A stretch of 61,098 nucleotides of DNA from an uncultured Bacteroidia bacterium (lineage in GTDB: Bacteria; Bacteroidota; Bacteroidia; Bacteroidales; F082), in the NCBI GenBank assembly GCA_902799345.1, contig CADBZW010000030.1, positions 1-61,098 on the forward strand, written 5' to 3'. Shown piece after piece: positions 11,268 to 53,073 of this stretch; positions within the stretch are counted from its first letter, which is position 1, and every line of letters begins with the position of its first letter. The notes under the pieces are model-generated. The model searched no databases. It had not been told where the DNA came from and saw only the letters and a program-made list of their open reading frames with translations. The position numbers and the translations under genes were made by a program.

Positions 11268-12169
11268 TACTTCTTGATTATCAAGGTTTGTCCTATTTGG
11301 ATCTTGTCGGATTTCAGGTTGTTCCACTTCTTCAGGTTGGCCACGCTGACATGGTATTTGGCCGCGATGCCCGAGAGGGTGTCGCCTTTTTTGACTTTAT
11401 GTTTGGTGGTCACTGAGCCTGTCGAAGGGACCTTCTTTGGCTCAGTGATGGTTTTTTTATCCGGCCCTTCGACAAGCTCAGGAGCCGAGACTTTCTTGGG
11501 TTTGCCGACCGAAGGCTCCGTGTCTTTCGCGCTGAACTTGAGTCGGCCTTGGCTGCCGAGGTAGACGCAGGCGATGAAGTCGGGGATGACCTTGATGTCG
11601 GGCATCAGGTCTTGCTCGTAGAAGTCCCACAAGGCAGGCTCGTCGCCGTGGTGTATCAGGGCGTGACTCAGCGAGGTGGGGCTGTTGGCGAAGGCCAGGA
11701 TGCTGTACCACCAGTCGTTGTACTTGTCGTGCAGGTCGTTGAGGTAATCCAAGGCGACCAGGGTGGAGGCTTCCACCGACCAGCGCTCGTCGCGGTTTTC
11801 GTCGACGGCGAGGCCGTAATGCATCGCCACCAAGGAGGGGAGGGCCCAGTAGCCACGGCGGTCGCCGTAGCTGAAGTTGGCTTTCATGCCGCTGAGGGCG
11901 TAGGGTAAAAACCTCAGTTCCAGAGGCATGCCACGTTGCACCAAGGCCGTGTCGATGAAGGCCTCGTATTTCGTGAACGTCGTGGGGAGGCTTTTGCCCG
12001 ACAGCTGTTTCACCGTCTTGTCCAAGGCGTCGTGGTAGGGCAGGGGGATGTCTTTTTCAAGGCTTTTCAGCTCTCTGGCGAGGCTATCGCTGCCCGACGA
12101 CACGCAACAATTGTTTGCCGCGAGGCAAAAGATGCACGACCATAATATGAGTAACGCCTTGAATTTCAT
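11267..12169 (-). CDS. LysM protein with a degenerate lytic-transglycosylase domain
   Basis: The 300-residue secreted protein starts with [19 protein letters not shown]. Residues about 45-205 follow the MltD-like lytic transglycosylase plan ([20 protein letters not shown], then [15 protein letters not shown]), but where active enzymes have the catalytic Glu of the ES motif this protein reads ALS, so it is probably not a cleaving enzyme. A LysM domain ([25 protein letters not shown]) closes the C-terminus and should bind peptidoglycan. The linker between them contains two inverted palindromic repeats translated as PELVEGP and VPSTGSV. It heads the operon with two SGNH proteins and an MBOAT acyltransferase and may direct them to the wall. 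Start at 12169 by signal peptide. Confidence 0.8.
11410..11484. repeat. Inverted pair of CCCTTCGACaGGCTCAG-type elements inside a coding sequence
   Basis: Two copies in opposite orientation, separated by about 30 bp, both translated in the linker of the LysM protein. Confidence 0.8.
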
Positions 12170-12220
12170 TGTTTTATGATAATCTGCGAACCGCCGAAGG
12201 CGGTTCACCGAAACGAGCGG

Positions 12221-12228
12221 CAAAGATA
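12221..12228 (-). promoter_or_regulatory. -7 element of the LysM/SGNH/MBOAT operon
   Basis: TATCTTTG followed by C on the minus strand. The roughly 50-nt leader contains a small hairpin, ACCGCC/GGCGGT, at 12190-12204. Confidence 0.6.
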
Positions 12229-12279
12229 CGAAAAATCCTTTTATAAAGAGGTAATGGAAGCTGAACGCACTTTTTTTGC

Positions 12280-12287
12280 TATTTTTG
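12280..12287 (+). promoter_or_regulatory. -7 element of the MATE gene
   Basis: TATTTTTG followed by C, 21 nt before the ATG at 12309. Confidence 0.6.
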
Positions 12288-12308
12288 CACCTTCATATCG
12301 CCCCCACT

Positions 12309-13676
12309 ATGCCAGTTATCGACAGGACAAAGGAATTAGAGACACTGAAAATCAGTAAGTTGTTGTGGATGTATGCTTTGCCGAGCATCGTCAGCCACGT
12401 CATTGCCTCGGTTTATAACATCGTCGACCGTGTCTTCTTGGGTCAGTATGTGGGTGCGCTTGCCATCGCGGGATTGGCCATCACCATGCCCATCATGAAC
12501 ATCATCCATGCCTTCGGATCGTTGGTGGGAGCGGGGTCGGCGGCGCGTATGTCCATCATCTTAGGCAAGAAAGACTACAAATGGGCCGAGGACATCTTGG
12601 GCAACAGCCTCTTGCTGACTTTCTTCTTCGGTTTCCTCTTCGTCACTGGCGGCTACCTCTTCATGGACAAAATCCTTACGGCGTTTGGCGCTTCTGACGA
12701 CACCATCGCCTACGCCAGGGAGTATATGGACATTGTGTTGCCGGGTATGTTTATGACCACGCTGTCGTTCAACCTCACCGGCTTGATGCGTGCCACGGGC
12801 TATCCCAAGAAGTCGATGTGGATTATGGCAGGTGGTGCCATCCTCAACATCTTTTTAGATGCACTGTTTATCTATGTCTTGGACTGGGGCATCGCCGGTG
12901 CGGCTTGGGCCACCACCATTTCGATGTCGTGTACGGGCGTACTTGCCGTATGGCATTTCCTTCAAAAGTCGTCGTTTATCCGTTTCCGTCGCCATGCTTG
13001 GAAACCAAAACTATACATTTTCAAAAACATCCTGATGATCGGCTTGAGTCCATTCTCGATGAACTTGGCGGCATCGGCTGTAGTGGCGTTGCTCAACAAC
13101 CAGCTGCTCCGCTATGGAGGCGACTTGGCTGTTGGCGCCTACGGTCTCGTCAACACTTTCGGTAGCCTTAGCGTGATGCTCATGGTGGGCCTCTGCCAAG
13201 GTATGCAGCCTATTGCCGGCTACAACTATGGCGCCGGTCATCCTTTACGGCTGAAGGAAGTCTACACACTCACCATGAAATACAATGTGCTTATTGGCTT
13301 TGTTGGGGCCTTGTTAGCCTTGATATTGCCCCATGCCATGCTGCGCCTTTTCACCAAGGAGGAGGAACTCATTCAAATTGGCATACCTGCCATGCGTTTC
13401 ATGATGGTGATGTTCCCTTTGGTGGGCTTCACCATCACCAATTCCAACTTCTTCCAGAGCATCGACAAGCCTTGGATTGCCATCGTCACCAGCCTCTCGC
13501 GCCAGGTGCTTTTCCTCACCCCGATGATTTACCTCATCCCGCCCATCTTCATCAATGCCGGCGGCAACGGCCTGACGGGTGTCTGGGCTTCGATGACCAT
13601 CTCCGATGTGCTGGGAGCGGTGCTTGCCTTCTTGCTTATGCTCAACCAACGCCATGTCTTTAAACCAACAGAATAA
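12309..13676 (+). CDS. MATE family multidrug exporter
   Basis: A 455-residue inner-membrane protein with about twelve hydrophobic helices in two similar halves. The opening KLLWMYALPSIVSHVIASVYNIVDRVFLGQYVGALAIAGLAIT is typical of NorM/MepA-type transporters, as are GLMRATGYPKK in helix four and LCQGMQPIAGYNYGAG in the second half. It should extrude cationic or amphipathic compounds in exchange for Na+ or H+. The start at 12309 follows a promoter at 12280-12287; an upstream in-frame ATG at 12276 lies before that promoter. A palindromic repeat lies directly after the stop. Confidence 0.92.
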   Translation: MPVIDRTKELETLKISKLLWMYALPSIVSHVIASVYNIVDRVFLGQYVGALAIAGLAITMPIMNIIHAFGSLVGAGSAARMSIILGKKDYKWAEDILGNSLLLTFFFGFLFVTGGYLFMDKILTAFGASDDTIAYAREYMDIVLPGMFMTTLSFNLTGLMRATGYPKKSMWIMAGGAILNIFLDALFIYVLDWGIAGAAWATTISMSCTGVLAVWHFLQKSSFIRFRRHAWKPKLYIFKNILMIGLSPFSMNLAASAVVALLNNQLLRYGGDLAVGAYGLVNTFGSLSVMLMVGLCQGMQPIAGYNYGAGHPLRLKEVYTLTMKYNVLIGFVGALLALILPHAMLRLFTKEEELIQIGIPAMRFMMVMFPLVGFTITNSNFFQSIDKPWIAIVTSLSRQVLFLTPMIYLIPPIFINAGGNGLTGVWASMTISDVLGAVLAFLLMLNQRHVFKPTE

Positions 13677-13680
13677 CTAA

Positions 13681-13716
13681 GGTCCCTGAGCCCTGAGCTT
13701 GTCGAAGGGAAGGGCC
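13681..13716. repeat. Intergenic CCTGAGC/GTCGAAGGG repeat
   Basis: An intergenic copy of the element that is translated as PELVEGP or PSTGSG elsewhere, 5 nt after the MATE stop. Confidence 0.7.
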
Positions 13717-13727
13717 GACATACTACA

Positions 13728-14027
13728 ATGGATCCTACCAACGCCACAACTACCCCTACCAACACCCACATCGTTGACTCGTGTCTTGTCACGAGCAAGG
13801 AGGACATACGAGCCTATCTGCAGAAATTGAGAGATACGTCGTCTCCAGAAATGGCTGTCAACCAGCGTGATATGGAGTCGCAGGTGCGCGAATGGCGCTC
13901 GCATAACTTCTTCTATAAGTTTCATGTATTTCGCAGCCGCACCAAAGACGTCGACCTCGAATTGAGGCAGAGTTGGCTTCGTGAGTTGTTCTGCCGTGTG
14001 GTCAGTTTCTTCTATTTTTGGGATTAA
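13728..14027 (+). CDS. Conserved small protein of unknown function
   Basis: A 99-residue product with a polar N-terminus and a conserved-looking core MESQVREWRSHNFFYKFHVF, then RSRTKDVDLE and a hydrophobic, aromatic end VSFFYFWD. I have a general impression of similar short Bacteroidales proteins with an EWR-HNF...RTKDVDL pattern, but know no function. There is no signal peptide. The start at 13728 lies 12 nt after a palindromic repeat, so the N-terminal 15 low-complexity residues (TNATTTPTNT) may have been added by local rearrangement. It may be cotranscribed with the MATE gene. Confidence 0.55.
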   Translation: MDPTNATTTPTNTHIVDSCLVTSKEDIRAYLQKLRDTSSPEMAVNQRDMESQVREWRSHNFFYKFHVFRSRTKDVDLELRQSWLRELFCRVVSFFYFWD

Positions 14028-14031
14028 AGTT

Positions 14032-14061
14032 TTTGTTTTTCAAAAAAAGGCATTACTTTTG
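14032..14061 (+). promoter_or_regulatory. -33/-7 promoter of the secreted protein gene at 14119
   Basis: TTTG at 14032-14035 and TACTTTTG followed by C at 14054-14061, spacing 18 nt. Confidence 0.7.
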
Positions 14062-14118
14062 CAAGGTAAAACATCTTGTAAACAAGTCATCATTATTAAT
14101 AATCTAAAACGTAATGCT

Positions 14119-14820: not shown

Positions 14821-14839
14821 AAAGAAGAAACAACCACAT

Positions 14840-14867
14840 GTAGAGACGTAGCGCGCTGCGTCTCTAC
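14840..14867. repeat. 28-bp palindromic repeat, GTAGAGACG family, copy 2
   Basis: GTAGAGACG-TAGCGCGCTG-CGTCTCTAC: perfect outer arms with a centre different from the other copies. It may also act as a transcription pause or terminator before DPP11. Confidence 0.85.
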
Positions 14868-14886
14868 ATTTTTAATGTACCCAATC

Positions 14887-17322: not shown

Positions 17323-17371
17323 CCTCCCATAGATACGCTCCCTCCTTCGTCGGTCGGTATGACATGGGAGG
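17323..17371. repeat. 49-bp inverted repeat, ATAGATACGCTCCCTC...GTCGGTATGACAT
   Basis: The arms CCTCCCAT and ATGGGAGG flank a core shared with the element at 41829-41935. It lies just beyond the exonuclease III stop codon. Confidence 0.7.
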
Positions 17372-18163: not shown

Positions 18164-18245
18164 GCGTCATTGCGAGGAGGAACGACGAAGCAATCTAGGG
18201 ATGAAGTCGATTGTCTAGATTGCTTCGTTCCTCGCAATGACGCGA
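18164..18245. repeat. Inverted pair of GTCATTGCGAGGAGgAACGACGAAGCAATC elements
   Basis: Two copies of a 30-bp element face each other across about 20 bp and form a long hairpin between xthA and the ClC gene. Other copies are at 43341 and 59479. Confidence 0.85.
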
Positions 18246-20722: not shown

Positions 20723-20750
20723 GTAGAGACGCGATTCATCGCGTCTCTAA
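20723..20750. repeat. 28-bp palindromic repeat, GTAGAGACG family, copy 3
   Basis: GTAGAGACG-CGATTCATCG-CGTCTCTAA between the amidase stop and the tadA start, inside the presumed operon. Confidence 0.85.
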
Positions 20751-22442: not shown

Positions 22443-23792
22443 TCAAAATTCATTAATGATCTCCTCAAAACTCCGCTCGTCTTCCAACCCATTCATCTTC
22501 TCCTGCTTGATGCGCGATTTGCGGCGGGCGTAGCTGTTGGTTTGCAGGTTCATCAGGATGGAGATGACTTGGTTGCTGAAGCCTTGTTTGGTGAGGCAGC
22601 AGATTTGCAGGTCGCTCTTGGTGAGGGTGGGGTATTTTTCCGTCAGTCTTTTCGTGAAGTCGCCGTAGACTTTGTCAATGAGTTCCACGAAGTCGTCCCA
22701 TTCGTTTTCCTTCAGGTCGAAGTCGAGGGTGGAGGCCGTGATTTGCTCGGTGAGGGCGAGGGCGGTCACGTACACCTTGTTTTTCTTCAGTTCCATCTCA
22801 AGTTGGTTCTTCATCTCTTCGGCTTTCAGCTGAGCATTCAGCGTTTTTTGGCGCAGCAGCAGCAAAACGATGACCAAAGCGAGGACCAGGCCGCCAAGGA
22901 TGAGGTAGAGATAGAGGCTTTTCAGCTTCTGCTCGGCTTCGAGGTTGTTTTTCTGCATTTGCAGGTCATATTCCGCCTTGATGCGTTGCACTTGTTCGCT
23001 GCGGTGCTCGCGGTCGGCCTGCATCATGTTCTCGTTGAAAAGTTCGAGGCATTTGAGGGCTTTTGGGTAGTCGCCGGCAAATTGGTGGAGGTAATAGAGG
23101 CTCTGGTAGGCCGACATGCGGACGCCCGCCTTGTCGCTGTGGGTGGCTTCGTTGAGGTGGACGATGGCGAGGCTGTCGTGCGACAGATAGTAATGTGCCA
23201 AGCCCAAGGTCAAGTGGCAAGCGTCGGCATCGGCGCCTTGGGCCAAAGCTTGGCCGACACGTTCTATCACCTGCCCATAGTCTTCTTTTGCCATCAGCAC
23301 ATCAAGGCTCGAGTCCAATAGCAGTTCGCGCTCCATCGTTTTGTCGTTCAGTTTTTGGGCGAGTTGCAAGGCTTCGTCGTAGTGCTGTTGTGCCTCGTCG
23401 ATGTTGCCCATCGAGGCGGCAGTGCGACCGCAATTGCGCAGCGCGTTCATCAACAAGGTGTCGTTGCCCAAGGCGCGAAACAGCTGTGCGGCGTCGGTGT
23501 GGAGGGGCAGGGCTTCGTCGAACAGCTCGTGTTTCCAATAGGCGAAGCCGAGGTTGTCCTCGATTAGGCCTTTCAGGCGTTGCACCTTGGGCTTCGTCGG
23601 GTCGCAGCGGTCGATGGCGATGAGCGCTTGGCTCAAGCTTTGTGCTGCGGCCTCCGTCTGCTTGTCGGCGATGTGCTGGCGCCCTTGTTCAAGGCCAGCC
23701 TCCGCCTCTCGGAAGTAGCCAGTCTCGTCATGGCAGGCCGTGAGGATTACCAACGACAAAAACACACTGATGATTATGGTTTTTGTTTTCAT
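22443..23792 (-). CDS. Membrane-anchored TPR protein with C-terminal HTH, putative transcription regulator
   Basis: The 449-residue protein starts with a lipoprotein-like signal (LVILTAC at residue 20). It has about six TPR-type helical repeats (residues 30-270), a transmembrane helix (LYLYLILGGLVLALVIVLLLL), a coiled coil and a C-terminal helix-turn-helix (SDLQICCLTKQGFSNQVISILMN). This is the Bacteroidota arrangement of TPR, membrane helix and LuxR-like HTH. The start codon overlaps the stop of the T9SS cargo gene by four bases (ATGA), so it is translated with it. A role in sensing envelope state and regulating the adjacent surface genes is inference. Confidence 0.8.
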   Translation of the reverse strand: MKTKTIIISVFLSLVILTACHDETGYFREAEAGLEQGRQHIADKQTEAAAQSLSQALIAIDRCDPTKPKVQRLKGLIEDNLGFAYWKHELFDEALPLHTDAAQLFRALGNDTLLMNALRNCGRTAASMGNIDEAQQHYDEALQLAQKLNDKTMERELLLDSSLDVLMAKEDYGQVIERVGQALAQGADADACHLTLGLAHYYLSHDSLAIVHLNEATHSDKAGVRMSAYQSLYYLHQFAGDYPKALKCLELFNENMMQADREHRSEQVQRIKAEYDLQMQKNNLEAEQKLKSLYLYLILGGLVLALVIVLLLLRQKTLNAQLKAEEMKNQLEMELKKNKVYVTALALTEQITASTLDFDLKENEWDDFVELIDKVYGDFTKRLTEKYPTLTKSDLQICCLTKQGFSNQVISILMNLQTNSYARRKSRIKQEKMNGLEDERSFEEIINEF

Positions 23793-25609
23793 CGTTTCAC
23801 GAATTTTTGTGTCGTTTCGCCCACGCTGATGAAATACATGCCCGAGGGCAATGTTGAAATGTCAATCTGTTGGGTCTCTGCCGAAATGTTACCAGTGAGC
23901 AAGGTTTGTCCCATGAGGTTAGTGATGCGGTAGGTCTGGTCTGGTAGAGACGCGATTAATCGCGTCTCTACAAACAAAATACCGTTTGTTGGATTAGGAT
24001 AGACCGTGAAGGTCCCTGAGCCCGTCGAAGGGCCGTCCTCATTAATGCCATTGTGCAATTCGGCATAGATGGCATCGCAGTCCTCATCGCCATCGTGATA
24101 CACCAGTTCGTCCCCAATCCAATAGCATCGCAGACCTTCCACGCGATAGCCTTTGCCTCGGTTCATCAGTTTTTCGGGGAAGAAGCTGGTCAAGTGGCCA
24201 TAGCCAACCACGATGTCGCCGCTAAAGAGGCCTCCAGCATCGCTGATGTGCAGCATCTTGCGGGTGTCGCCATCGTATTCAAACACGCCCACACTGTCGA
24301 CATGCACCAGAATGCTCTCCGTCCCCACCTTGATTTCCCATTCGTCGCCGGCTTCGGCGTCGTAGTCGTAAAGCACCGTAAAGTCCTCCAAGTCCTTGTT
24401 CCACCAATAAACGAGGCCGTTTTCTTCATATACATATTCGTGTGTCACCTCGGTATGTTCGTTTCTGTCGTAGATGGTGTTGGTGCGCACGATGATTTTG
24501 GGCCTTTCGGTGCCGATAGTGGTGTCCGCAGCACATTCCAAATGCTGGTAAGTGATGGTGCCGTCGTCGTTGAGAATTTCGTAGTACCATTCGGAATGAG
24601 GCTCAAAGAACGGGTCGAACACACACATATCGTATAGGGCATTGCAATTTTCGATTTGGCATTGCTTTTCGAAGTTTTTCCAAACGTAGAATTTATTGTC
24701 AAAGTCTTTGCCTAGCACATAAATGTCAGTGAAAGTCGATTGGATGCAGTAGGCGTATTCTAATTGTAATACTTCAGAATTATAATCTTTTAATATTGCG
24801 TCATAGTATTGCCAACGACTTGTATATCCATAATAATAGGAGTCATCAAAAGCGCAAATGCAGTGCAGGACATCGAAATAAGGCTGAACATAACGTACCA
24901 ATACATTGTCTTTCCATAATGCAGGAATGGGAAAACCTTGTTGTTCAAACTCGCCAATCGTATATACATGACCATTTTCGACAGCAATTTGGGATGCGTA
25001 TGAAGATGTTATCGGTGCTTCATAAATCGAGTCTTGTTCAAATGTGGAAAGCAATTCTTGCGCTTTCCAAATGGCGGCGCGTTTCTTGTCGTCAATGATA
25101 TAGCCACAAAAATAAGGAATGCCGGTCCGTTTGTCAATATCAGAAAAGGCAATGGAGCTCGGATGAACACCGTCACCCATAACCCAATGTGTCTCAAAGT
25201 TGCTTCCTTTCCATACTGTAGCCATCAACACAGAGTCTTCATTGTATTGATAACCAGCATAGTATATGGTGTCTTTGAGACAGTACATATCGGCAATATG
25301 AACTTCTCTATGGTTTTCGGTCGAGGCATAGACATGGTCGTTTAAGCGTATTTCCGTATGGTTGTAGGTGCCATCCGGATAATCGTAAAAGTTGACCAAC
25401 CAAAAGGCATCGCCTTGTGAGTTGCAGGTTACCCTTGTCGCCTTTGAAGTTTGACTTGAATATTGTGCTGTGTAAAGTCTGTTGCCGTTTTTGTAAAGTG
25501 CAGCAACAGTTCCGTTGGTTTCATCGTAATAGCCTACGGAATAAACATCTTGCGCATTGGTGGGCATGGCCAAAGCCATCAATAATACAATTGCGAATAA
25601 CTTTTTCAT
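23789..25609 (-). CDS. Secreted protein with T9SS C-terminal sorting domain
   Basis: The 606-residue protein has a signal peptide (MKKLFAIVLLMALAMPTNAQ), a propeller-like N-terminal half of unknown function (repeats around YSVGYYDETNGTVAALYKNG and YYAGYQYNEDSVLMATVWKG), and a C-terminal Por-type sorting tail: YPNPTNGILFVE, then ITNLMGQTLLTG and LPSGMYFISV. The last 260 residues are close to identical to those of the neighbouring broken gene, so one is a tandem duplicate. Two palindromic repeats are translated just before and inside the sorting tail, as DGPSTGSGTF and [10 protein letters not shown]. It is exported through Sec and then T9SS. Confidence 0.8.
   Translation of the reverse strand: MKKLFAIVLLMALAMPTNAQDVYSVGYYDETNGTVAALYKNGNRLYTAQYSSQTSKATRVTCNSQGDAFWLVNFYDYPDGTYNHTEIRLNDHVYASTENHREVHIADMYCLKDTIYYAGYQYNEDSVLMATVWKGSNFETHWVMGDGVHPSSIAFSDIDKRTGIPYFCGYIIDDKKRAAIWKAQELLSTFEQDSIYEAPITSSYASQIAVENGHVYTIGEFEQQGFPIPALWKDNVLVRYVQPYFDVLHCICAFDDSYYYGYTSRWQYYDAILKDYNSEVLQLEYAYCIQSTFTDIYVLGKDFDNKFYVWKNFEKQCQIENCNALYDMCVFDPFFEPHSEWYYEILNDDGTITYQHLECAADTTIGTERPKIIVRTNTIYDRNEHTEVTHEYVYEENGLVYWWNKDLEDFTVLYDYDAEAGDEWEIKVGTESILVHVDSVGVFEYDGDTRKMLHISDAGGLFSGDIVVGYGHLTSFFPEKLMNRGKGYRVEGLRCYWIGDELVYHDGDEDCDAIYAELHNGINEDGPSTGSGTFTVYPNPTNGILFVETRLIASLPDQTYRITNLMGQTLLTGNISAETQQIDISTLPSGMYFISVGETTQKFVKR
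23944..23971. repeat. 28-bp palindromic repeat, GTAGAGACG family, copy 4 (coding)
   Basis: A perfect palindrome GTAGAGACG-CGATTAATCG-CGTCTCTAC, translated as VETRLIASL inside the T9SS sorting tail. Confidence 0.9.
24012..24035. repeat. GGTCCCTGAGCCcGTCGAAGGGCC element, coding copy
   Basis: Translated as GPSTGSGT in the 23789-25609 gene, directly before the sorting domain. Confidence 0.85.
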
Positions 25610-25783
25610 GGCATTATGTTTTAATGGTTCATTTTACAACAAATTTCACGGTCTGTGCGTCAACGCTGATGAAATACATTCCCGCAGGCAGGTTGGTTAT
25701 GTCAATCTGTTGGGTCTCTGCCGAAATGTTACCAGTGAGCAAGGTTTGTCCCATGAGGTTGGTGATGTGGTAGGTCTGGTCTG

Positions 25784-25811
25784 GCAGAGACGCGATTAAT
25801 CGCGTCTCTAC
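25784..25811. repeat. 28-bp palindromic repeat, GTAGAGACG family, copy 5 (coding)
   Basis: One mismatch (GCAGAGACG at the left arm). It is at the same place in the sorting tail as copy 4, so it was duplicated with it. Confidence 0.88.
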
Positions 25812-25850
25812 AAACAGGATGTTATTTGTAGGATTAGGATAGACCGTGAA

Positions 25851-25874
25851 GGTCCCTGAGCCCGTTGAAGGGCC
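25851..25874. repeat. GGTCCCTGAGCCcGTtGAAGGGCC element, coding copy
   Basis: The counterpart of 24012-24035 in the tandem paralogue, one base different, also read as GPSTGSGT. Confidence 0.85.
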
Positions 25875-28297
25875 GTCCCCATCAATGCCATTGTGCAGTT
25901 CGGCATAGATGGCGTCGCAGTCCTGGTCGCCATTGTGGTAGAGCAGGGCGTCGCCCACCCAATAGCATCTAAGACCCTCCACGCGGTAGCCTTTGCCTCG
26001 GTTCATCAGTCTTTCGGGGAAGAAGCTGGTCAAGTGGCCGTAGCCTACGACGATGTCGCCATTAAAGATGTTTCCAGCATCGCTGATGTGCAGCATTTTG
26101 CGGGTGTTGCCTTCGTATTCAAACACGCCCACACTGTCGACATGCACCAGAATGCTTTCCGTGCCCACCTTGATTTCCCATTCGTCGCCAGCTTCGGCAT
26201 TGTAGTCATAGAGCGTCGTGAACTCCTCCAAGTCCTTGTTCCACCAATACACTACATTGCCTTCCTCAAGGATATATTCATGAGTTATCTCGGTAAATTC
26301 GTCGCGGTCGTAGATGGTGTTGGTGCGGACGATGATTTTGGGCCTTTTGTTGCCGATGGTCGTGTCGGCAGCGTATTCCAAGTGTTGGTAAGTGATGTTG
26401 CCGTTTTCCCATTCGAGTTCATAGTACCATTCGGATAAAATCGGGAATTGTTGCTCGAGGGTATTATAATGCAAACTGATTTCAAACTGATTGACCCCAC
26501 TATATGTGGATTCTAATTGCCTTTGCCATTCATACAATTGTGAATCATTGAATAAGGATTGTCCCGAAAAGACATCCCACACCCAGTCATTGTTGTTTTT
26601 CTTCCGGAAGGAAATGGTCACAATTTGTGTCTCATCATTGAACTCATAGAGAACTTTCTTGGTGATGTTCCATTCGGAAGCTTCGGCAGACCAAGAACCT
26701 GTCTGGTATTCAATCACGCGATTCTTGAAATCGTATATATAATGCGCAATTCCTGAGTTCACCCATGTACCATCGTTGAGTACTTGTGTAACGATGCTAT
26801 CTGTTTTGTTGCTGTCAGTGTAAGTATAGGTTTTCAATGACCTGGATGTCATGGCTCCAGTATTGTCATAGTTGTCTGTTTGGGAAGTCAACACTTGTTG
26901 TTGCTCATTATAATGATTGGTAGTCACAGAAGAGAGTATCGTAGTACCCGAATAAGTGGAATCAATTCGGGTCCTGTTTCCGTTTTCATACGCATAATTG
27001 TTACGCCGCCATATCACTGTCTGAGATTCATCAGTGCTGCTTGAGTCTTTCCGAAACAATCTGTGGTTGGTGTAATAATAGTCGTAATGATTATTGATAT
27101 CGTAATAATAATCATTTCCCCGAGTATGATCGGAATGTTTTATTTGGTGATCGGTTTCGTATGTAAAGTTTAATGTTTCAAATTCTGCTGGATGGCCTCC
27201 TAAATAACTATGAATTCTTGACGGCTTGGAAGGAAACTCGAAAAACGTAAAATAACTAGTGCGGCTCTGAGACGTGAAATTAGTTAGCACACCGTTTGGG
27301 TCATAATTGAAATCAGAATGCTCCTCAGCCGTTACTTGGCCTGCGGCATCGTACGTTCGAGTAATGACATGGTCAGGGTATGCTATAGAATCATATACCG
27401 TTATGGAGCAGTCGAAACAAGCAGTCATGACGCAATCGCGATCCAGCGTAAAAGTATATTCTTGAGAATAGGATACAACGGCACCATTTCTTTTCCAATA
27501 ACCAAAAACATGGCCAAGATTCGGGGTGGCACGAACGGTGGCAGTCGTATGCTCACAGTCTTCGGGTATCGAAACCACTTCGGCAGTGCCGTACTGAGGG
27601 TTGTTGACACTAACGGTCAATGCAGGAGCGCCAAGGAATACGCCTCCTTCCATGTTGACGAACCTACTCCAATCCCAATTCAAAAGGAATTGGTCGAAAG
27701 TCAAGCAGTTGACATAGACTGGAATATCCGTGGGAACATTATTGAAAATGCTTCGGTCCTCGTAATAGGGACTGCTTGGAAGATGTTCGCTGAACGGTGG
27801 TGTTGGGGTATTGCAGTGGATGGATTGTAAACCTATACAATCTTCAAAAGCACTATATTGTATAGTATCAACGGAAGCACCGATGGTTAAGGAAGAAAGT
27901 GCCGTGCAATCCGTGAAGGCATAACCGCCGATGAAAGTGCATTGGTCGGGGATGACGAAACTACTGGAAAGACCTATGCAATCCATAAAAGCTTCTGCCT
28001 CAATTCTTCGAATGGTATTAGGCAGTTCAACAGATGTGATTCCATCACAAGCAAAGAACGCATTAAAGCCAATGGAAACCACAGTATAGGTGATTCCTTC
28101 ATATTCGACAGTTTCAGGAATAATCAAGTCGCCTTCAGGCTTGGTACAAGGTTTGGCCAGTTTCGCACACGGCAGAGAAGTGATAGGGGTAGGCTTTGGC
28201 ACTCGTTGCGAGCACCATCATTGTTAGAATTGCGAATAACTTTTTCATGGCATTATGTTTTTTAATTGTTATTGTCTCGTTTTTGAGGTTTGCAATG

Positions 28298-41835: not shown

Positions 41836-41935
41836 AGGGATAGATACGCTCTCTACGCAGCCCATGTCATACCGACCGAGGAACGAGGGAGTGTATCTAT
41901 GGGCTGCTCCGTTCGGTATGACATCCCTTCAAAAA
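41829..41935. repeat. Inverted repeat with nested GTCATACCGACCGAGG core, possible terminator
   Basis: Outer arms TTTTTGAAGGGAT and ATCCCTTCAAAAA enclose GATACGCTC, GTCATACCGACCGAGG, GAGTGTATC and CGGTATGAC. The left arm overlaps the end of mntP and codes its last residues. The core resembles 17323-17371. A following TTTTTCTTTATTTTTC could make it a terminator. Confidence 0.7.
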
Positions 41936-43340: not shown

Positions 43341-43373
43341 GCGTCATTGCGAGGAGGAACGACGAAGCAATCA
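43341..43373. repeat. Single GTCATTGCGAGGAGgAACGACGAAGCAATC element
   Basis: One copy without its inverted partner, between the U32 and PHP genes. Confidence 0.8.
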
Positions 43374-43384: not shown

Positions 43385-44272
43385 ATGCAAAACTTCAATC
43401 TACATACCCACAGCATTTATTCCGACGGCAAGTCGCAGCCTCGCGAAATCGTGGAAGAGGCCGTCCGTCAGGGCTTGACCACGCTTGGCTTTTCGGAGCA
43501 CAGCCCCCTGCCTTTCGACAATACTTTTTCGGTGAAATCAGCCGACATGCCGAATTATGTAGCTGAAATTGCCCAACTTAAAGAAGAGTTCAAGGACAAA
43601 ATCGACATCTATTGCGGGTTGGAGGCCGATTACCTCACGGGCGTTTCCGAGCCTTTTGCCGTGACCAAAGAGAAGTATCATCTTGATTATCTGATTGGTG
43701 GAGTCCATCTTGTTATTAATCCGGCCCTTCGCGTCCTTCGACAGGCTCAGGAACCAGCTCAGGGACCTCTTGCCGAACAAATCTGGTTCATCGATGGCCC
43801 CAAGTGGGAAGTCTATGACGAAGGCTTGCAGAAGTTCTTCGATGGCGACATCCGCCGTGCCGTGCGCCGATTCTTTGAGCAGTCGAATGAAATGATAGAA
43901 AACGAGCAGTTCGACATCATCGCGCACTTCGACAAAAACAAGATGCACAACCGCGACCGCTATTTCCACGAAGACGAGCCTTGGTATCGCAAACTTGCTC
44001 TTGAGACTCTCGACCTCATCCGCGAGAAAGGCTTGGTGATGGAAATCAACACACGTGGCATCTACAAGAAACGCTACAACGGCTTCTATCCCTCGCCATG
44101 GCTGATGGAGGAGGCCTTCAAAATGGGCGTTCCCGCCATCATCTCCGCCGACGCGCACCATTTCAGTGAAATCACACTTGAATTTGAAGCCGCTGAGGAA
44201 GCCTTGAAGAAAGCGGGGTATCGAAGTGTGGTGAATTTCAAGGATGGGCAATGGATTGAAGTGGCGATTTGA
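43385..44272 (+). CDS. PHP-domain phosphatase, histidinol-phosphatase (HisJ)-like
   Basis: The 295-residue metal-dependent hydrolase has PHP motifs NLHTHSIYSDGKSQPREIV (HxH), GFSEHSPLPF, GLEADY, IGGVHLV and the C-terminal ISADAHHFSE. HisJ dephosphorylates histidinol phosphate; other PHP substrates are possible and no his gene is nearby. Between IGGVHLV and WFIDGPKW an insertion of about 20 residues (NPALRVLRQAQEPAQGPL) is encoded by a palindromic repeat; related enzymes go from the His directly to a W-x-D. The insert sits beside a metal ligand, so activity might be affected. Confidence 0.85.
   Translation: MQNFNLHTHSIYSDGKSQPREIVEEAVRQGLTTLGFSEHSPLPFDNTFSVKSADMPNYVAEIAQLKEEFKDKIDIYCGLEADYLTGVSEPFAVTKEKYHLDYLIGGVHLVINPALRVLRQAQEPAQGPLAEQIWFIDGPKWEVYDEGLQKFFDGDIRRAVRRFFEQSNEMIENEQFDIIAHFDKNKMHNRDRYFHEDEPWYRKLALETLDLIREKGLVMEINTRGIYKKRYNGFYPSPWLMEEAFKMGVPAIISADAHHFSEITLEFEAAEEALKKAGYRSVVNFKDGQWIEVAI
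43722..43768. repeat. CCTTCGACAGGCTCAGG element, coding copy in the PHP gene
   Basis: Translated as RQAQEPAQGP, a third reading frame of the same repeat family seen at 11410, 24012 and 25851. Confidence 0.8.
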
Positions 44273-44336
44273 TGAAAAATATGCAAATCCGCTTCAAAAT
44301 AGTACCAAAAAATCTGCATTATTTTTGCAGATTTTT
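44273..44336. repeat. Left direct repeat of the ATPase cassette
   Basis: Starts TGAAAAATATGCAAATCC, then GCTTCAAAATAGT, and closes with the hairpin AAAAATCTGCA/TGCAGATTTTT. It starts at the base after the PHP stop codon. Confidence 0.8.
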
Positions 44337-44337
44337 C

Positions 44338-44345
44338 TAATTTTG
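44338..44345 (+). promoter_or_regulatory. -7 element of the ATPase gene
   Basis: TAATTTTG followed by C, just after the left repeat and 20 nt before the ATG. Confidence 0.6.
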
Positions 44346-44365
44346 CAGTCTCTCAATACTTTAAG

Positions 44366-45670
44366 ATGATGCTGAAAAGAAAGATGACAGACCGCCTTTT
44401 GGAGTGGAAAAACACTAAGGACAAGGAATGCTTGCTCGTCAAAGGGGCGAGGCAAATCGGGAAAACCTTTATCATTGAGGACTTTGCGCAAAAGCATTAC
44501 AAGCATTTCGTGGAAATCAACTTCGAGCAGCATCCCGAGATGAAGGCCATTTTCGACGGCAGCCTCTCCGTTCCCGAGCTGATTCAAAGGATTACTTTGT
44601 TTATGCCCGATGCCGAGTTCGCGCCTCACGAGACTTTGCTTTTCTTGGATGAAATCCAATCTTGTCCTCAGGCACGTACCTCGCTGAAATTCTGGGCGAT
44701 AGACAACCAATATGATGTGATTGCCACAGGCTCGTTGTTGGGCATCAATTATAAAGAGGTGTCGTCTTATCCAGTTGGCTATGAGCGTCAGATAGATATG
44801 TATGCGATTGATTTTGAGGAGTTTTTGTGGGCATTGGGCGTCAAAGAGAGTTTGATTGACGATTTGAGGCGGCATTTCGCTTCAGGCGAACCCATTGATG
44901 CCGTCATCCACGACAAGATGATGACTTATTTACGTCAGTATATGGTCGTTGGTGGTATGCCAGCGGTGGTCAACAAGTTCATCGAAACAAATAATTACAA
45001 TTTGGTTCACGCCGAACAGACTAAGATTTTGGCTGACTATATGAACGATATTGCCAAATACGCTCCCACCGCCGACAAGCCGAAGGCACGGAGTTGCTAT
45101 CTTTCCATCCCTTCGCAATTGGCCAAGGAAAACACGAAGTTCCAGTATTCGGTAGTCGAGAAGAAAGGTACGGCGCGTAAATTTGCCAATAGCCTTGACT
45201 GGCTACGTGATGCCCACTTGATTGCCTTTTGCCACAATGTTTCCACCATTGAGTTTCCTTTGGCAGCTTATGCAAAAGAGGATCAGTTCAGGATTTATGT
45301 CACCGACATTGGTCTGCTGATTGCGATGTATAGTTTTGAGATGAAACGCGCCATTATTGACGACACGCTTGCAAGTCACGCCAAAGGCGGAATTTATGAG
45401 AACTTGATGGCTGACTTTCTGCTCAAAAAAGGCTTGGCGCTGTACTATTATTGCAAAGAAAACAACTCAGTGGAAGTTGAGTTTCTCATCGAGCGCAACG
45501 CGAAACCTGTACCCATCGAAGTGAAAGCCAAACGCGGAACGGCCACTTCGTTGAACACTGTTTTGGACAAGTCTAATATCGAAATGGGCTATAAATTCGG
45601 TGCGGGCAATGTGGGTGTTGAAGGCAAAAAAACAACATTGCCACTGTTCATGGCAATGTTTGTTTCGTGA
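44366..45670 (+). CDS. AAA ATPase with DUF4143 nuclease-like C-terminus
   Basis: The 434-residue protein has Walker A GARQIGKT (residues 27-34) and Walker B LLFLDEIQ (91-98) in an AAA_14 domain, then a DUF4143 region ending in VEVEFLIERNAKPVPIEVKA, which has the D/E...ExK spacing of PD-(D/E)xK nucleases. Members are abundant in Bacteroidota and archaea with no firm role; defence and mobile-element functions have been suggested. The gene lies exactly between two direct repeats, and its stop codon is the first triplet of the right one. It separates the PHP gene from the convergent purC. Confidence 0.85.
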   Translation: MMLKRKMTDRLLEWKNTKDKECLLVKGARQIGKTFIIEDFAQKHYKHFVEINFEQHPEMKAIFDGSLSVPELIQRITLFMPDAEFAPHETLLFLDEIQSCPQARTSLKFWAIDNQYDVIATGSLLGINYKEVSSYPVGYERQIDMYAIDFEEFLWALGVKESLIDDLRRHFASGEPIDAVIHDKMMTYLRQYMVVGGMPAVVNKFIETNNYNLVHAEQTKILADYMNDIAKYAPTADKPKARSCYLSIPSQLAKENTKFQYSVVEKKGTARKFANSLDWLRDAHLIAFCHNVSTIEFPLAAYAKEDQFRIYVTDIGLLIAMYSFEMKRAIIDDTLASHAKGGIYENLMADFLLKKGLALYYYCKENNSVEVEFLIERNAKPVPIEVKAKRGTATSLNTVLDKSNIEMGYKFGAGNVGVEGKKTTLPLFMAMFVS

Positions 45671-45733
45671 AAAATATGCAAATCCACTTCAAAAAAGTGT
45701 AGAAAAATATGCAAAATTATTGCATATTTTTCA
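45668..45733. repeat. Right direct repeat of the ATPase cassette
   Basis: Starts TGAAAAATATGCAAATCC, then ACTTCAAAAAAGT, and ends TTGCATATTTTTCA. The first TGA is the ATPase stop and the last TCA is the purC stop on the other strand. It can fold as a terminator for both convergent genes. Confidence 0.8.
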
Positions 45734-46675
45734 TAACCTCAAGTAAATCAACACATTATTCTCAATTCGCTTGACAAGGTCTTCCGAATCGGGAGCCTTC
45801 TCGAATTTGTGTCCTGTAACTTTCTCATAAAGTTCGATGTAACGCTCCGAAACGCTGTTGACGTATTCGGGTGTCATTTCGGGCACTTGCTGTCCTTCCT
45901 TGCCTTGGAAGCCGTTGGCCATCAGCCACTCACGGACGAATTCCTTCGAGAGCTGCACCTGTGGCTCGCCCTTGGCGAAACGTTCCTCGTACTGGTCGGC
46001 GATGAAGTAACGCGACGAATCGGGCGTGTGGATTTCGTCCATCAGCACGATTTGGTCGCCGATTTTGCCGAACTCGTACTTGGTATCGACGAGAATCAAG
46101 CCCTGCTTGGCTGCGATTTCCGTACCGCGCTGGAACAGCTTGCGGGTGATGTCTTCAATCTGCACATAATCGTTCTTGCTGATGAGTCCACGGCTGATGA
46201 TTTCCTCGCGTGAGATGTCCTCGTCGTGGCCTTCCTCAGCCTTGGTGGTCGGTGTGATGATAGGCTCGGCGAAACGCTGGTGTTCCTTCATGCCGTCAGG
46301 GATCTGCACGCCGCAGATGGTGTGTTGTCCGCTCTTGTAGGTGCGCCACGAACTGCCAGTGAGGTAGCCACGGATGATCATCTCAATCGGGAAGGGCTTG
46401 CAGAGGCGGCCTACGGTGACCATCGGGTCGGGGGTGGCGAGCTTCCAGTTGGGGACGATGTCGGCGGTGGCGTCGAGGAACATGGCGGCAATCTGGTTGA
46501 GCACCTGTCCCTTATAGGGAATGCCCTTGGGCAGGATGACGTCGAAAGCCGAGATGCGGTCGGTGGCGACCATCACCATGTATTCGTCGTTGATGAAATA
46601 ACAATCGCGGACCTTGCCGTGATAGACCTTGGTCTGGCCAGGGAATTGATAATCTGTTCTGGTTAATGCGTTCAT
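45731..46675 (-). CDS. purC: Phosphoribosylaminoimidazole-succinocarboxamide synthase
   Basis: The 314-residue SAICAR synthetase of purine synthesis joins aspartate to CAIR. Motifs include [50 protein letters not shown] and [20 protein letters not shown] followed by HTPDSSRY. The longer yeast/Bacteroidota form is recognised by its C-terminal extension. Its ATG overlaps the phoH stop as TAATG, so translation is coupled. The stop lies in the repeat 45668-45733. Confidence 0.95.
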
Positions 46676-47703
46676 TATTGTTGATTGTTGATTGTTGAAT
46701 CGTTTAATTGTTGTTCGGTCGGTAGAGACGCGATTAATCGCGTCTCTACAGGTCCGTCAATATTGTGCTTCTTATATGCATTGATGATATCCGTCACCAA
46801 TTTGTGCCTCACCACATCCTTGTCATCCAAATAGATGAATTCAATGCCTTTGACGTCTTTCAGCACCTCCATGGCTTGTGGCAAGCCTGATGGTGTCTTG
46901 GGCGGCAGGTCGATTTGGGTGATGTCGCCGGTGACGATGAACTTGGCCGAGCGTCCCATCCGGGTGAGGAACATCTTTAGCTGGCTGCGCGTGGCGTTTT
47001 GCGCCTCGTCGAGGATGACGAAGGCATGGTCCAAGGTGCGGCCGCGCATGAAGGCCAGAGGCGCAATCTCGATTGTATGGTCTTCGAGGTAACCCTCCAG
47101 TTTGGTGCCCGGTATCATGTCGCGCAAGGCATCATAAAGCGGTTGCAGATATGGGTCGAGCTTGTCTTTGAGGTCGCCGGGGAGGAAGCCTAAGTGTTCA
47201 TCGGCTTCGACGGCGGGACGGGTGAGGATGATTCTTCGTACCTCTTTGGCTTTCAAGGCCCTGACAGCCAATGCCACGGCGGTGTAGGTCTTACCGGTGC
47301 CCGCAGGACCGATGGCGAAGATTAAGTCCTTTTGTTCCGATGCTGTCACCATGCGTTTCTGGTTGGCGGTGATGGCCTTGACGGGGACGCCGTTGCGCCC
47401 GAAGACCAACACGTCGCTTTCCGACATCTTGCGTTGCAGTTCGCTGTCGGTGCTGGCCATCATGACGTCTTCAACGGTTTGGGCTGTGAGTTTGCCGAAA
47501 CGCTCAAGTTGCACCATCAAGGTCTCGTAGCGGTTGGTGAAATACTCTATCTCCTCATCGTCGCCGATGACCTTCACGAAGTCGCCACGCGCGATGATTT
47601 TCAGCTTAGGGAACATGCTTTTCACTAGTTCCAGGTACTTGTCGTTGGGGCCGTGAAGGTCCTTGGGGTCAACATTTTCTATCTGAAGGATCTGTTCTGC
47701 CAT
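46675..47703 (-). CDS. phoH: PhoH-like ATPase with a repeat-derived C-terminus
   Basis: The 342-residue protein is a PhoH/YbeZ-type RNA-associated ATPase. Walker [16 protein letters not shown], the [20 protein letters not shown] segment, Walker [16 protein letters not shown] and [10 protein letters not shown] are complete. The conserved domain ends near [10 protein letters not shown]. The last 27 residues, [20 protein letters not shown] and STINNQQ, are translated from a 28-bp palindrome followed by a TTGATTGTTG-type spacer repeat, and supply the stop that overlaps purC. The tail is probably not functional but is tolerated. Confidence 0.92.
46679..46712. repeat. TTGATTGTTGAATCGTTTAATTG-type spacer repeat
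   Basis: An A+T-rich tandem-like repeat, translated as the PhoH end. Similar stretches are at 58099-58141 and 60783-60830. Confidence 0.6.
46715..46742. repeat. 28-bp palindromic repeat, GTAGAGACG family, copy 7 (coding)
   Basis: Identical in sequence to copy 4 (23944), perfect palindrome, translated as VETRLIASL in the PhoH tail. Confidence 0.9.
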
Positions 47704-47728: not shown

Positions 47729-47773
47729 GATTATTTTTTAAAATGAAAAAAATGTAGTTTTTTTAAAAAACTA

Positions 47774-47805
47774 TTGGCGAGATTGACATAAATGATATAC
47801 CTTTG
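47774..47805 (+). promoter_or_regulatory. -33/-7 promoter of the SAM hydrolase gene
   Basis: TTGG at 47774-47777 and TACCTTTG followed by C at 47798-47805, spacing 20 nt. Confidence 0.65.
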
Positions 47806-47846
47806 CAATTCCGATTTCACGGGAACAAATAGCACTACTCAAAGCG

Positions 47847-49226: not shown

Positions 49227-49237
49227 GGGCCTTGTGT

Positions 49238-50248: not shown

Positions 50249-50256
50249 GTCTTTAA

Positions 50257-52512
50257 TTAAAATTCATCTATATATTCGATGCTTTCTTCATCGTCATAAT
50301 GGTTGCAGTCGAAGTTCAAATCAACACCAGGGATATTAGGCTTGGTGAAGTCGCCCTTGCTAATGCCTAAATTCTTGTCGGCGTAAACTTTTTTCATGTA
50401 TAATGCCCAAATGGGTAATGCCGTATGTGAGCCTTGGCCCAGCTTAGTGGAGCGGAAATGTACGCTACGGTCTTCGGCTCCCACCCAGACGCCTGTGGTG
50501 AGGTCGGGAGTGATACCCATAAAATAACCATCACTATTCTTCTGTGTGGTTCCGGTCTTGCCGGCAATGGGATTGTTGAAGCCGTACAAAGAACGCAGAC
50601 GGATACCCGTGCCACTTTGCACTACGCCCTTCATCAGCTCAATCATCTTGTATGCCGTCAGCTCGCTCATGGCCTCCGACTCCTCTGGGCTGAAGCGTTG
50701 GATGACGTTGCCGTTCTTGTCTTCGATACGGGTGATGAACATAGGCTTGATGTAAACGCCTTGGTTGGCAAAGGTGCTCATGGCGCCGACCATCTCGATG
50801 AGCTTCAGGTCGCAGACACCCAAGCAGATGGCAGGTACGGCGTCGATGGGTGATTCCACACCCATGCGGCGGGCTTGTGCGATGACGGCATTGGGGCCGA
50901 ATTGGTTCATCAAGTAGGCAGAAATCCAGTTGTTGGACTGGGCCAAAGCATACTTTAAGGTGATTTCTTCGCCGACGCGGCCACCCGAGTTGCCTGGTGA
51001 CCAAACCTTTCCATCTTCCAGCTGGATGTTGTATTGGATGTTAGGAATCTTGGTGCAAGGCGTGTATTCGCCTTCTTGCATCGCCAAGGAATACAGGAAG
51101 GGCTTGAAGGTGGAACCCACCTGACGGCGTGCTTGCGTGACGTGGTCGTATTTGAAGAAACGATAGTCTAGACCGCCCACATAAGCCTTCACATGGCCTG
51201 TGTGTGATTCGATGGAGATGAGGCTGGCTTGCAGGAACCACTTGTAATAGCGGATGGAATCCATGGGCGACATGACGGTGTCAATGGGGCCATCCCAAGA
51301 GAAGATGGTCATCGGGACGGGACGGTCGAACTCAGCCTTGATGGAATCCATAGGCATACCGGCGTTTTTGAGGATGCGATAACGGTCGCTACGTTTCATC
51401 GAGGTCTCAAGGATGTGGTCGATCTCGTCGGCGGTCACATTGGAGAAAGGCGCGTTTTTCTGTCCTTTCCAGTGTTTGTAGAACATGGGTTGCAGTTCGC
51501 CTCCCATAAACTCCCTGACAGCTTCTTCCGCATAGCGCTGCATGCGTGAATCGATGGTGGTGTAGATGCGCAGGCCATCGCGATAGATGTTATATGGCTG
51601 ACCGTCGGCGCGGGTGGTGTTTTTGGCCCATTCGTTCAGCTCGCCACGTAGGAACTCGCGAAAGTAGGTGGCTTGGCCGCTGTTGTGGTCCCTGATGCTA
51701 AAATGCGACATGTCGATGGGGATCAATGAGATGGAGTCGCATTCGGCTTGGGTGATATAGCCTTTTTCGGCCATCTTTGTGAGTACGAGGTTACGGCGGC
51801 TCAAGGCGTTGTTGGGATTACGAACGGGGCTGTAGCGTGTGGGCGCGTTGACGACGCCGGCCATCAAGGCGCATTCTTCGATGTTCATCTCGCTGGGTTT
51901 CTTGTCGAAGAAGGTGCTGGCAGCGGAGCGGATGCCGTAGGCGTTGTGGCCGAAAGCCACGGTGTTGAGGTACATGGCGATGATCTCTTCTTTCGAGTAG
52001 TTGTGCTCCAGCTTGGTGGCGGTGATCCATTCTTGGAACTTACGCAGCACGAGTTTGCCGGTGCTGAGGTTCTCGCCACGGGGGAAGAGGTTTTTGGCCA
52101 ACTGCTGAGTGATGGTTGAGCCGCCGCCTTTCTTGTTGCCTGTCAGCACGCCGAAAGCCACGCGGAACAAGGCCCGTTCGTCGATGCCGGAGTGCTCCGT
52201 GAAGCGTTCGTCTTCAATGCTGATGAGGGCTTCGGGCATGTAGTGCGACAACTCGGAATAGCGCACGTTGGAACGATTTTCGATATAGTAGGTGCCCAAC
52301 ACCTTGCCATCGGCGGAGATGATTTCGGTGGCTAAATTGGTGCGTGGGTTTTCTAATTCATCGAAGGTGGGCATGGTGCCAAACACGCCTTTGGCAACGC
52401 AGAAGAAGAACAAAATGATAAGCAGTAGGAACGACCCGAAGACAATCCATAGGTTGCGGATGGCCTTCGGACTGCCGTTTTGTTGCTTTTCTTTTTTCTT
52501 ATTATCGCTCAT
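50257..52512 (-). CDS. Class A penicillin-binding protein (PBP1A-like)
   Basis: The 751-residue bifunctional enzyme builds and crosslinks peptidoglycan. One N-terminal helix ([20 protein letters not shown]) is followed by a GT51 domain ([17 protein letters not shown], with the catalytic Glu, and [14 protein letters not shown]), a linker domain and a transpeptidase with [11 protein letters not shown] (SxxK), QSNNW (SxN) and GKTGTTQ (KTG). The C-terminus is Asp/Glu-rich ([13 protein letters not shown]). It starts 3 nt after the gldH stop. Confidence 0.95.
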
Positions 52513-52515
52513 ATC

Positions 52516-53073
52516 TTATTGTTTTTCAATGTATAAACCAATATCTGAGATGCCTTTCAACACAGGCTCGCGCATGGCTTGCTCGATTTCGAAGTGGTAG
52601 GTGCCATTCATGGGGAAGAGCAGGTTGTCGTTGAGGGGGACGACACGGTCTCTCATGCTGCCGCTGCTTTTGCCGATCCAACGTCCTTCGGGTGTGGCCA
52701 GCGTACATTCGATGGTGTCGTGCGTGACGTTGCCGTTGGGCATGCGAGTGTGGAGAAACACGAAGAGGTTGCTGTAGCGGTAGTTCTCCAAATGACGTAA
52801 GCCGATGCCGAAACGGTAAAGGCTGACGGTGTCGTTGATGTCGACGTCGAAGGCCACACGGTCCTCTTGTCGCCACTCGGCTTCGGGGATGACGGTGCGT
52901 TTGTTGAACGACTCGCTGGTGCAGCTCGCAAAAAACAATAAAACTAACAGAAAAGCCGTCATTGCGGGCTTGACCCGCAATCTCCCGTGCAGAAGAGGTT
53001 GTACTAATGCACGGGTGATGGCGGATGTTCCTCCGCCATGACGGCTTTTTGTAATGGTTATGTTTTTATTCAT
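52516..53073 (-). CDS. gldH: Gliding-motility/T9SS lipoprotein GldH with a repeat inserted in its signal peptide
   Basis: GldH is an outer-membrane lipoprotein associated with type IX secretion. The mature part is typical (NKRTVIPEAEWRQEDRVAF, RYSNLFVFLHTRMPNG, GIGLRHLENYRYSN). The lipobox is LLVLLFFASC at about residue 51, much later than normal. Residues 9-41 (from KSRHGGGTSAITRA to RLRVKPAMTA) are encoded by a 100-bp palindromic element, between the basic start MNKNITIT and the hydrophobic core. Either the long n-region RLRVKPAMT still works, or translation starts inside at the Met before TAFLLV. It lies between the psp1 and pbp1A genes. Confidence 0.85.
   Translation of the reverse strand: MNKNITITKSRHGGGTSAITRALVQPLLHGRLRVKPAMTAFLLVLLFFASCTSESFNKRTVIPEAEWRQEDRVAFDVDINDTVSLYRFGIGLRHLENYRYSNLFVFLHTRMPNGNVTHDTIECTLATPEGRWIGKSSGSMRDRVVPLNDNLLFPMNGTYHFEIEQAMREPVLKGISDIGLYIEKQ
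52951..53050. repeat. 100-bp palindromic element within the gldH signal sequence
   Basis: Outer arms AAAAGCCGTCAT and ATGACGGCTTTT; inside, ATTGCGGGCTTGACCCGCAAT and GGCGGATGTTCCTCCGCC are two further hairpins, plus CCCGTGC/GCACGGG. Confidence 0.85.

Follow-up and report, generated by a model that had tools for sequence, protein, structure and literature searches.

We analysed a 61,098-nucleotide (nt) stretch of DNA (hereafter the window) from an uncultured Bacteroidia bacterium of the order Bacteroidales, which constitutes contig 30 of the 51 contigs of a 3.13 Mb genome (G000; G-numbers denote genomes of the genus, and L-numbers denote fetched loci). The window carries three families of short hairpin repeats, some between genes and others read in frame as parts of proteins. 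F1 is a palindromic GTAG…CTAC element resembling repetitive extragenic palindromic (REP) sequences, with the word AGAGACGCGATTNATCGCGTCTCT; F2 is a 24-nt hairpin unit, GG-NNNT-TCGACARGCTC-ANNN-A-CC, with the core word CCTTCGACANGCTCAGG; and F3 is a REP-like repeat with a CGTC tag.

Five genes of the window contain such repeats in frame. The linker of an SLT-LysM protein (11,267–12,103, minus strand; found by the gene caller and, for SLT and LysM, by Pfam) holds an F2 core on the plus strand at 11,466–11,482, whose opposite-strand reading is PELVEGP, and a second core with one mismatch on the minus strand at 11,412–11,428, read as PSTGSV. Two genes for proteins sorted by the type IX secretion system (T9SS), recognised by translation and Pfam, lie in tandem on the minus strand. 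In the first (23,789–25,609), an F1 palindrome at 23,946–23,969 is read as a 10-residue word inside the sorting domain (Por_Secre_tail 536–605), and an F2 core at 24,015–24,031 on the minus strand encodes PSTGSG directly before that domain. Its paralogue (25,629–28,202, for which the gene caller places the start later) has the same 10-residue F1 word at 25,786–25,809 and PSTGSG from an F2 core with two mismatches at 25,855–25,871 on the minus strand. Because the paralogues have a common 300-bp end of 85% identity, they represent one set of insertions copied once; each does carry the words in frame, as had been proposed, but the insertions are not independent. A PHP-domain phosphatase gene (PF02811; 43,385–44,272, plus strand) contains, within the PHP domain, a 45-nt nested F2 element at 43,723–43,767 on the same strand, read as ALRVLRQAQEPAQGP. 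Finally, phoH (PF02562; 46,675–47,703, minus strand) has an F1 palindrome at 46,724–46,747, read as a 10-residue word in the C-terminal tail, which varies among orthologues. The original prediction, made from the window's letters alone, had named the words of the LysM protein (PELVEGP, VPSTGSV), the PHP protein (RQAQEPAQGP) and PhoH; all are in frame in genes supported by Pfam, and one element, F2, is indeed read in three frames, as PSTGSG, PELVEG and RQAQ. A second F1 frame, RDAINRVST, which that prediction overlooked, occurs elsewhere in the genome.

The repeat words are well above chance. In the window, CCTTCGACANGCTCAGG has six matches at up to three mismatches (shuffle mean 0.56, with none of 100 shuffles reaching six), and AGAGACGCGATTNATCGCGTCTCT occurs at four places, or eight strand-hits (shuffle mean 0). 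Genome-wide, there are 45 F2 core matches at up to one mismatch, 67 F1 strand-hits corresponding to 34 places, and 23 F3 matches, the latter two at up to three mismatches; reversed-pattern controls for the three families gave no match in the whole genome. An Rfam scan of the window at the gathering threshold returned three tRNAs only. F2 was also found in 21 viral stretches and F1 in 19. PSTGSG and PEPVEG resemble ordinary linkers, and the words might have been attributed to codon usage or to low-complexity linkers without a repeat origin. This is hardly credible, given 45 cores versus none for the reversed pattern, the presence of the same DNA between genes in either orientation, its reading in different frames, and the covariation of its stems. 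Chance and codon usage are thus refuted by the intergenic copies, the shuffles and the reversed controls.

In 75 of 83 F2 units, both inner pairs of the stem are complementary, whereas 2000 shuffles gave 47.3 on average and 57 at most. Among the units that are not CC/GG, 16 of 24 are paired (shuffle average 4.1, at most 11), and the paired stems are of nine types; since the copies are related, the shuffles do not yield a strict probability. At loci from named genomes, 79 of 85 units are paired in the 41 high-GC loci and 64 of 67 in the other 39 (Bacteroidota included), most of these units being the CCC/GGG word that was searched for. Units also combine: 15 of 18 close pairs are inverted (12 plus then minus, 3 minus then plus), and in nested forms one unit sits in the loop of another, as in a 48-nt form with five copies in the genome, four of them in genes. 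Single and nested units are also common. Composites outside genes had seemed to be built in multiples of three (7/8, then 6/10; pooled 13/18, p = 0.0015), an idea that we do not claim because the same nested forms turn up repeatedly and inverted dimers taken by themselves give 7/12 (p = 0.12). In genes, the composite span is not a multiple of three in 4 of 17 and 3 of 10 cases in two samples, and the frame therefore depends also on flanking sequence. Of the 34 F1 loci, 33 retain GTAG on the left, CTAC on the right, or both, and 17 have both; the tag, which should be unpaired in a GTAG-tagged REP, can pair in 17 of the 34. F3 carries the CGTC tag, with ATTGC/GCAAT at its ends, and has a middle that, judged from its sequence, appears longer than the 8–9 bp stem and 4–5 nt loop of a CGTC-REP.

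Orthologues of two enzymes, the PHP phosphatase (30 aligned, of 46 genomes with a match) and diphosphomevalonate decarboxylase (30 of 39), provide the clearest view of insertion. At the PHP site, 18 of 30 loci have repeat-free loops of 6–8 residues, GQSANPDE-like or shorter, while the 11 loci with F2 have loops of 15–31 residues; one more (L008) looks like an eroded F2 form, missed by the script that assigned the labels, as was a seemingly eroded F1 form in the U32 peptidase (L469). The repeat-bearing PHP loops belong to the window's subclade, and their F2 arms are single, nested, in inverted dimers or eroded. Relative to the repeat-free allele of G022, the length differences are 21, 24, 42, 60, 63 and 69 nt, all multiples of three, as the reading frame requires. 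Intergenic sites of the same families differ by 29, 38, 56, 67, 100 and 112 nt, which are not multiples of three; differences of 54, 75 and 84 nt, which are, also occur there. In the decarboxylase, 11 of 30 loops contain F2 and have 16–31 residues, 15 have 7–13 residues, one contains an F3-like element, and three of 15–19 residues have other sequence. At neither enzyme do repeat-free orthologues carry the residues of the repeat at the same place. Their shorter loops, together with the in-frame inserts of the carriers, support the earlier proposal of insertion at tolerated sites, and by alignment the sites appear to be variable loops, linkers and tails.

At other sites, the content of a segment is exchanged between species. 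The relevant segment of the U32 peptidase (30 loci, of 57 genomes with a match) contains F1 with several different stems in eight loci, F3 in three, an AT-rich repeat in four, and no labelled repeat in 15, one of which is the eroded F1 form. The AT-rich repeats of L472, L475, L479 and L485 are read as SIINYQFSI or QLAVDSGQLAV in the segment used by F1, which means that simple repeats also occupy this landing site. The PhoH tail (30 of 39 genomes with a match) varies in all species: it has F1 with differing stems in G000, G002 and G032, an F2 dimer in G018, and none in G021. Among these rows, the F3 label of L107 is weak (a nine-base word), L101 passes a stop in the alignment, and L121 is incomplete. 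In two phoH orthologues, L104 (G012) and L105 (G007), the protein ends in NPGLLRSSQ, encoded by an F3-type repeat that in G012 also supplies the stop codon. The LysM linker (12 loci), whose content differs among species, has F2 words in several species and none in others. For these three proteins the evidence, as read from the alignments, is of content replacement between species and not of clean length gain. At one intergenic F1 site, G000 and G030 lack the repeat, and in G028 a ten-base direct repeat (GACMATGTAA) surrounds the insert at this site, a possible target duplication.

Such diversity could also reflect interspecies recombination, or repair in place with the hairpins as templates, instead of fresh insertions. 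Both stem arms of F1 change between related species at a single site (the PhoH tail, the U32 segment and an intergenic site), the nested F2 form of the PHP gene recurs at an unrelated intergenic locus in G002, indicating that copies convert or move, and the U32 segment changes little in length between some carriers and non-carriers. Still, F1, F2, F3 and AT-rich repeats at one site are not what repair of a single element in place would produce; interspecies recombination could shuffle them. We consider this explanation rather unlikely overall.

The repeats differ in how often they lie inside genes. Genes were called with a home-made Markov caller on the fetched surroundings of the listed copies, and 84% of the fetched bases were coding. 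In the window's genome, 30 of 45 F2 copies are wholly within genes, as compared with 13 of 34 F1 copies (two more lie on gene edges; Fisher p = 0.02 versus F2) and 3 of 23 F3 copies (p = 3e-5 versus F2), a count of coding copies that the original prediction had called for. All three families are rarer in genes than expected under random placement, F2 least so. In the fetched stretches of two other species, F2 is genic in 27 of 52 copies (G003, 55 in the genome) and 12 of 23 (G012, 47 in the genome), such that its genic share is about half to two thirds in three species of the genus. Pfam matches at E ≤ 1e-4 were obtained for 37 of the 40 carrier proteins scanned (of 42 distinct); in two of the 37 the match falls short of the curated cut-off. 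The carriers include a topoisomerase, TilS, an Epimerase_2 protein, diphosphomevalonate decarboxylase, a Mur ligase, RuvX, Vsr, the U32 peptidase, a Dus protein (with F3) and several T9SS-sorted proteins.

F2 is free of stops in five of six frames, and its 24-nt unit amounts to eight codons. Across the three genomes, genic copies are read as PSTGSG-type (31), PEPVEG (23), LRQAQG (12), LSLSK (2) and FDKLR (1), so that 66 of 69 use three of the five open frames; these counts take in orthologous and paralogous sites and are not fully independent. Such avoidance of poor peptides is consistent with a filter for tolerance. One could argue instead that the inserts are actively kept, with PSTGSG, PEPVEG and LRQAQG serving as linkers or tuning the protein and the repeats acting as a linker supply. 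The strength of the bias, which extends to all 24 genic copies at named loci (below), and the recurrence of F2 beside the T9SS sorting domains of several proteins speak for active retention. However, in related species these segments contain peptides of unrelated sequence or none at all, the decarboxylases of three species (3 of 30 orthologues) accept the LSLSK frame as SLSLSKG, and purging of bad peptides predicts the frame bias equally well. We therefore regard active retention as improbable.

F2 is not confined to this genus. The exact 21-mer CCTTCGACARGCTCAGGRACC is present in at least 119 stretches of named genomes; among the matches listed (80 of 119), the hosts are Bacteroidota, Microbacterium and other Actinobacteria, Treponema, Fibrobacter, Desulfobacterales, Lachnospiraceae and Gemmatimonadota. 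We located genes at 71 of the 80 loci, leaving out two Fibrobacter and seven mixed loci. F2 is genic in 11 of 55 cases in Actinobacteria, where it is thus mostly intergenic, 10 of 26 in Bacteroidota and 3 of 8 in Treponema, and all 24 genic copies are in the same three frames as in the genus.

Taken together, we suggest, with a probability of roughly 80%, that REP-like families multiply in this Bacteroidales genus and insert throughout the chromosome, and that within genes only tolerated in-frame copies survive and are translated. In this model, F1 (of GTAG type), F2 (whose 11-nt loop is conserved and whose stem covaries) and F3 (of CGTC type) would multiply and insert across the chromosome; the copies that survive in genes would be in frame, free of stops and placed in loops, linkers and tails that tolerate them, presumably translated as extra, mostly flexible peptide; and copies would change after insertion, as arms are lost, nested and inverted-dimer forms of F2 arise, and palindrome stems change on both sides. 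We infer that insertion occurs by transposition in trans, that the inserts lie in surface loops, and that the encoded peptides are tolerated rather than useful. A more tentative extension, to which we give somewhat less than even odds, is that F2 is a hairpin element with genes as a main habitat, and that certain conserved proteins have segments that are recurrent landing pads, in which unrelated families replace one another as species diverge; mobile hairpins would then be a lasting supply of new linkers for proteins.

Several observations weigh against this model of multiplication and tolerated insertion. The inserts at coding sites differ from one clean unit, because their flanks have also diverged. 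The repeat-free U32 segments of distant species have 13–20 residues and overlap the 19–20 of the F1 carriers, which is why we speak of replacement of content there. A possible target duplication was seen at only one intergenic F1 site, the gene calls come from a home-made caller, and production of the peptides is predicted from DNA. Moreover, at 58 loci of the genus with Y1_Tnp genes (a subset of the genus matches, two being the same gene), no F1 or F3 is found up to 1.2 kb from where the match begins, F2 cores are found there four times, and the counts of such genes and of F2 are hardly correlated within the 14 F2-rich genomes (Spearman 0.06).

The last points bear on what mobilises the repeats. 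Classical REPs are mobilised in trans by REP-associated tyrosine transposases (RAYT, TnpA-REP), and the genome's own enzymes might do the same for F1–F3. There are three Y1_Tnp (RAYT-type) genes in the genome, genomes of the genus with more RAYT genes tend to have more F2 (Spearman 0.53 across 36 genomes), and F1 bears GTAG, which excerpts of one survey give as the tag of RAYT-associated REPs (PMC3733652). Yet this correlation is confounded by ancestry, G033 and G008 have Y1_Tnp matches (4 and 5) without any F2, and none of the three RAYT genes of the genome is flanked by F1–F3, two of the three being flanked by other palindromes. These two RAYT-like genes (L001 1247–2372 on contig 20 and L002 1281–2038 on contig 10) are bracketed by palindrome arrays of their own (TACCCCGTAGGGGTT; CAGGGACTTACGTCGCCTGC), candidate cognate REPs unrelated to F1–F3. 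A RAYT as the regular neighbour of F1–F3, a link that had been raised for this DNA, was not found at the 58 loci, and we think it doubtful that these enzymes mobilise the three families.

The element at gldH stands apart from F1 and F2. An inverted dimer of CGTC type (52,956–53,043, minus strand), with relatives elsewhere in the genome, overlaps the N-terminus or 5´ region of the gene. CGTC tags lie at both of its outer ends. According to excerpts of PMC3733652, CGTC-tagged REPs have the tag, an 8–9 bp stem beginning with AT, and a loop of 4–5 nt. One arm, CGTC-ATTGCGGG-CTTGA-CCCGCAAT, falls within this definition; the other, CGTC-ATGGCGGA-GGAACA-TCCGCCAT, has a 6-nt loop. The open reading frame runs through the dimer in G000 and G003, and the gene caller starts gldH at the dimer's end (52,962). 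Translation of this repeat is uncertain because the start codon is unproven; thus, of six genes originally proposed to carry an in-frame element, five stand.

Between genes, the window holds an F2 core within a nested form (13,692–13,708, minus strand), an F1 palindrome (20,725–20,748, plus strand) and three F3 repeats on the plus strand: one at 18,167–18,195, one between the PHP gene and its upstream gene (43,344–43,372), and one at 59,481–59,509, a site for which G002, G021 and G032 have a repeat-free allele shorter by 112 nt. GTAG-type palindromes with other stems (GAGACGTGCCATGGCGCGTCTC, GAGACGTAGCGCGCTGCGTCTC) lie between or near genes at 3,495 and 14,843. A further 43-nt repeat family (CCCATGTCATACCGACC...TATCTATGGG) occurs at 17,326–17,368 and 41,861–41,903, inverted to each other, and G003 has a copy related to this family where the window has an F3 repeat. 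Two 96-nt direct repeats with 74% identity (44,268–44,363 and 45,663–45,758) lie on either side of a single gene (44,366–45,670). Alignments of G002, G003 and G032 skip this gene, and in G022 it is about 8 kb from the PHP gene; gene and flanking repeats may therefore form a small mobile or variable unit.

In the literature, we found no description of in-frame palindromic inserts in Bacteroidales among the matches listed, as judged by title and abstract start, and by the same measure the papers in PMC that match the exact repeat words are not about repeats. As far as this search reaches, an untagged and largely genic F2 in the genus, the species-by-species replacement of repeats in one segment, and a cross-phylum F2 word are new. 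The word is identical in rumen Bacteroidales, Microbacterium, Treponema, Fibrobacter and others. How mobile hairpins insert, are tolerated and turn over in conserved enzymes can be traced across about 35 related genomes, so the role of selfish palindromes as a source of protein segments is directly testable.

Several known systems invite comparison. Excerpts of the 2013 survey (Di Nocera et al.; PMC3733652) describe in-frame intragenic REPs in other bacteria of several phyla, list Bacteroidetes among the hosts of CGTC elements, and argue that flexible linkers or loops may be places where inserts persist. The intragenic GTAG- and CGTC-tagged REPs described there have much in common with our families: they are tagged hairpins, often form inverted dimers of unlike units, have intragenic copies and can supply stop codons. 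F1 shares the GTAG tag, and F3 and the gldH element the CGTC tag. F2, in contrast, has neither tag and is largely genic, whereas most REPs are intergenic in that text. Furthermore, in half of the F1 copies (17 of 34) GTAG can pair with CTAC, F1 has no association with RAYT at the 58 Y1_Tnp loci (within 1.2 kb), and unrelated families here occupy one protein segment across species. In REPINs, two REP units lie close together in opposite orientation, and the predominance of inverted pairs in F2 (15 of 18) recalls them. Unlike in the REPIN/RAYT system, no RAYT is regularly flanked by F2, and F2 units also nest in each other's loops. PARCELs, in the available part of their description (PMC2996958), are likewise coding palindromic DNA patchily shared across distant microbes, but they form tandem 25-residue amphipathic domains, whereas the peptides encoded by F2 units and composites are about 8 to 26 residues long and are not such arrays. 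The enterobacterial RU elements, which resemble miniature inverted-repeat transposable elements and are compared here by description as excerpted (PMC2759123), are small mobile sequences with open frames in annotated genes and are longer, at 103–168 bp. A further parallel is offered by the palindromic elements of Rickettsia, reported in excerpts of PMC10969869 and PMC3733652 to lie in frame in many unrelated genes. They are about 150 bp long according to the review, as opposed to 24-nt F2 units and composites of about 32–78 nt in a Bacteroidales genus. Both kinds of element are inserted in frame into many genes that are unrelated to one another and otherwise conserved; the likeness, proposed from the outset, is apt as one of mode of action, resting on how the elements insert and not on any relation of sequence.

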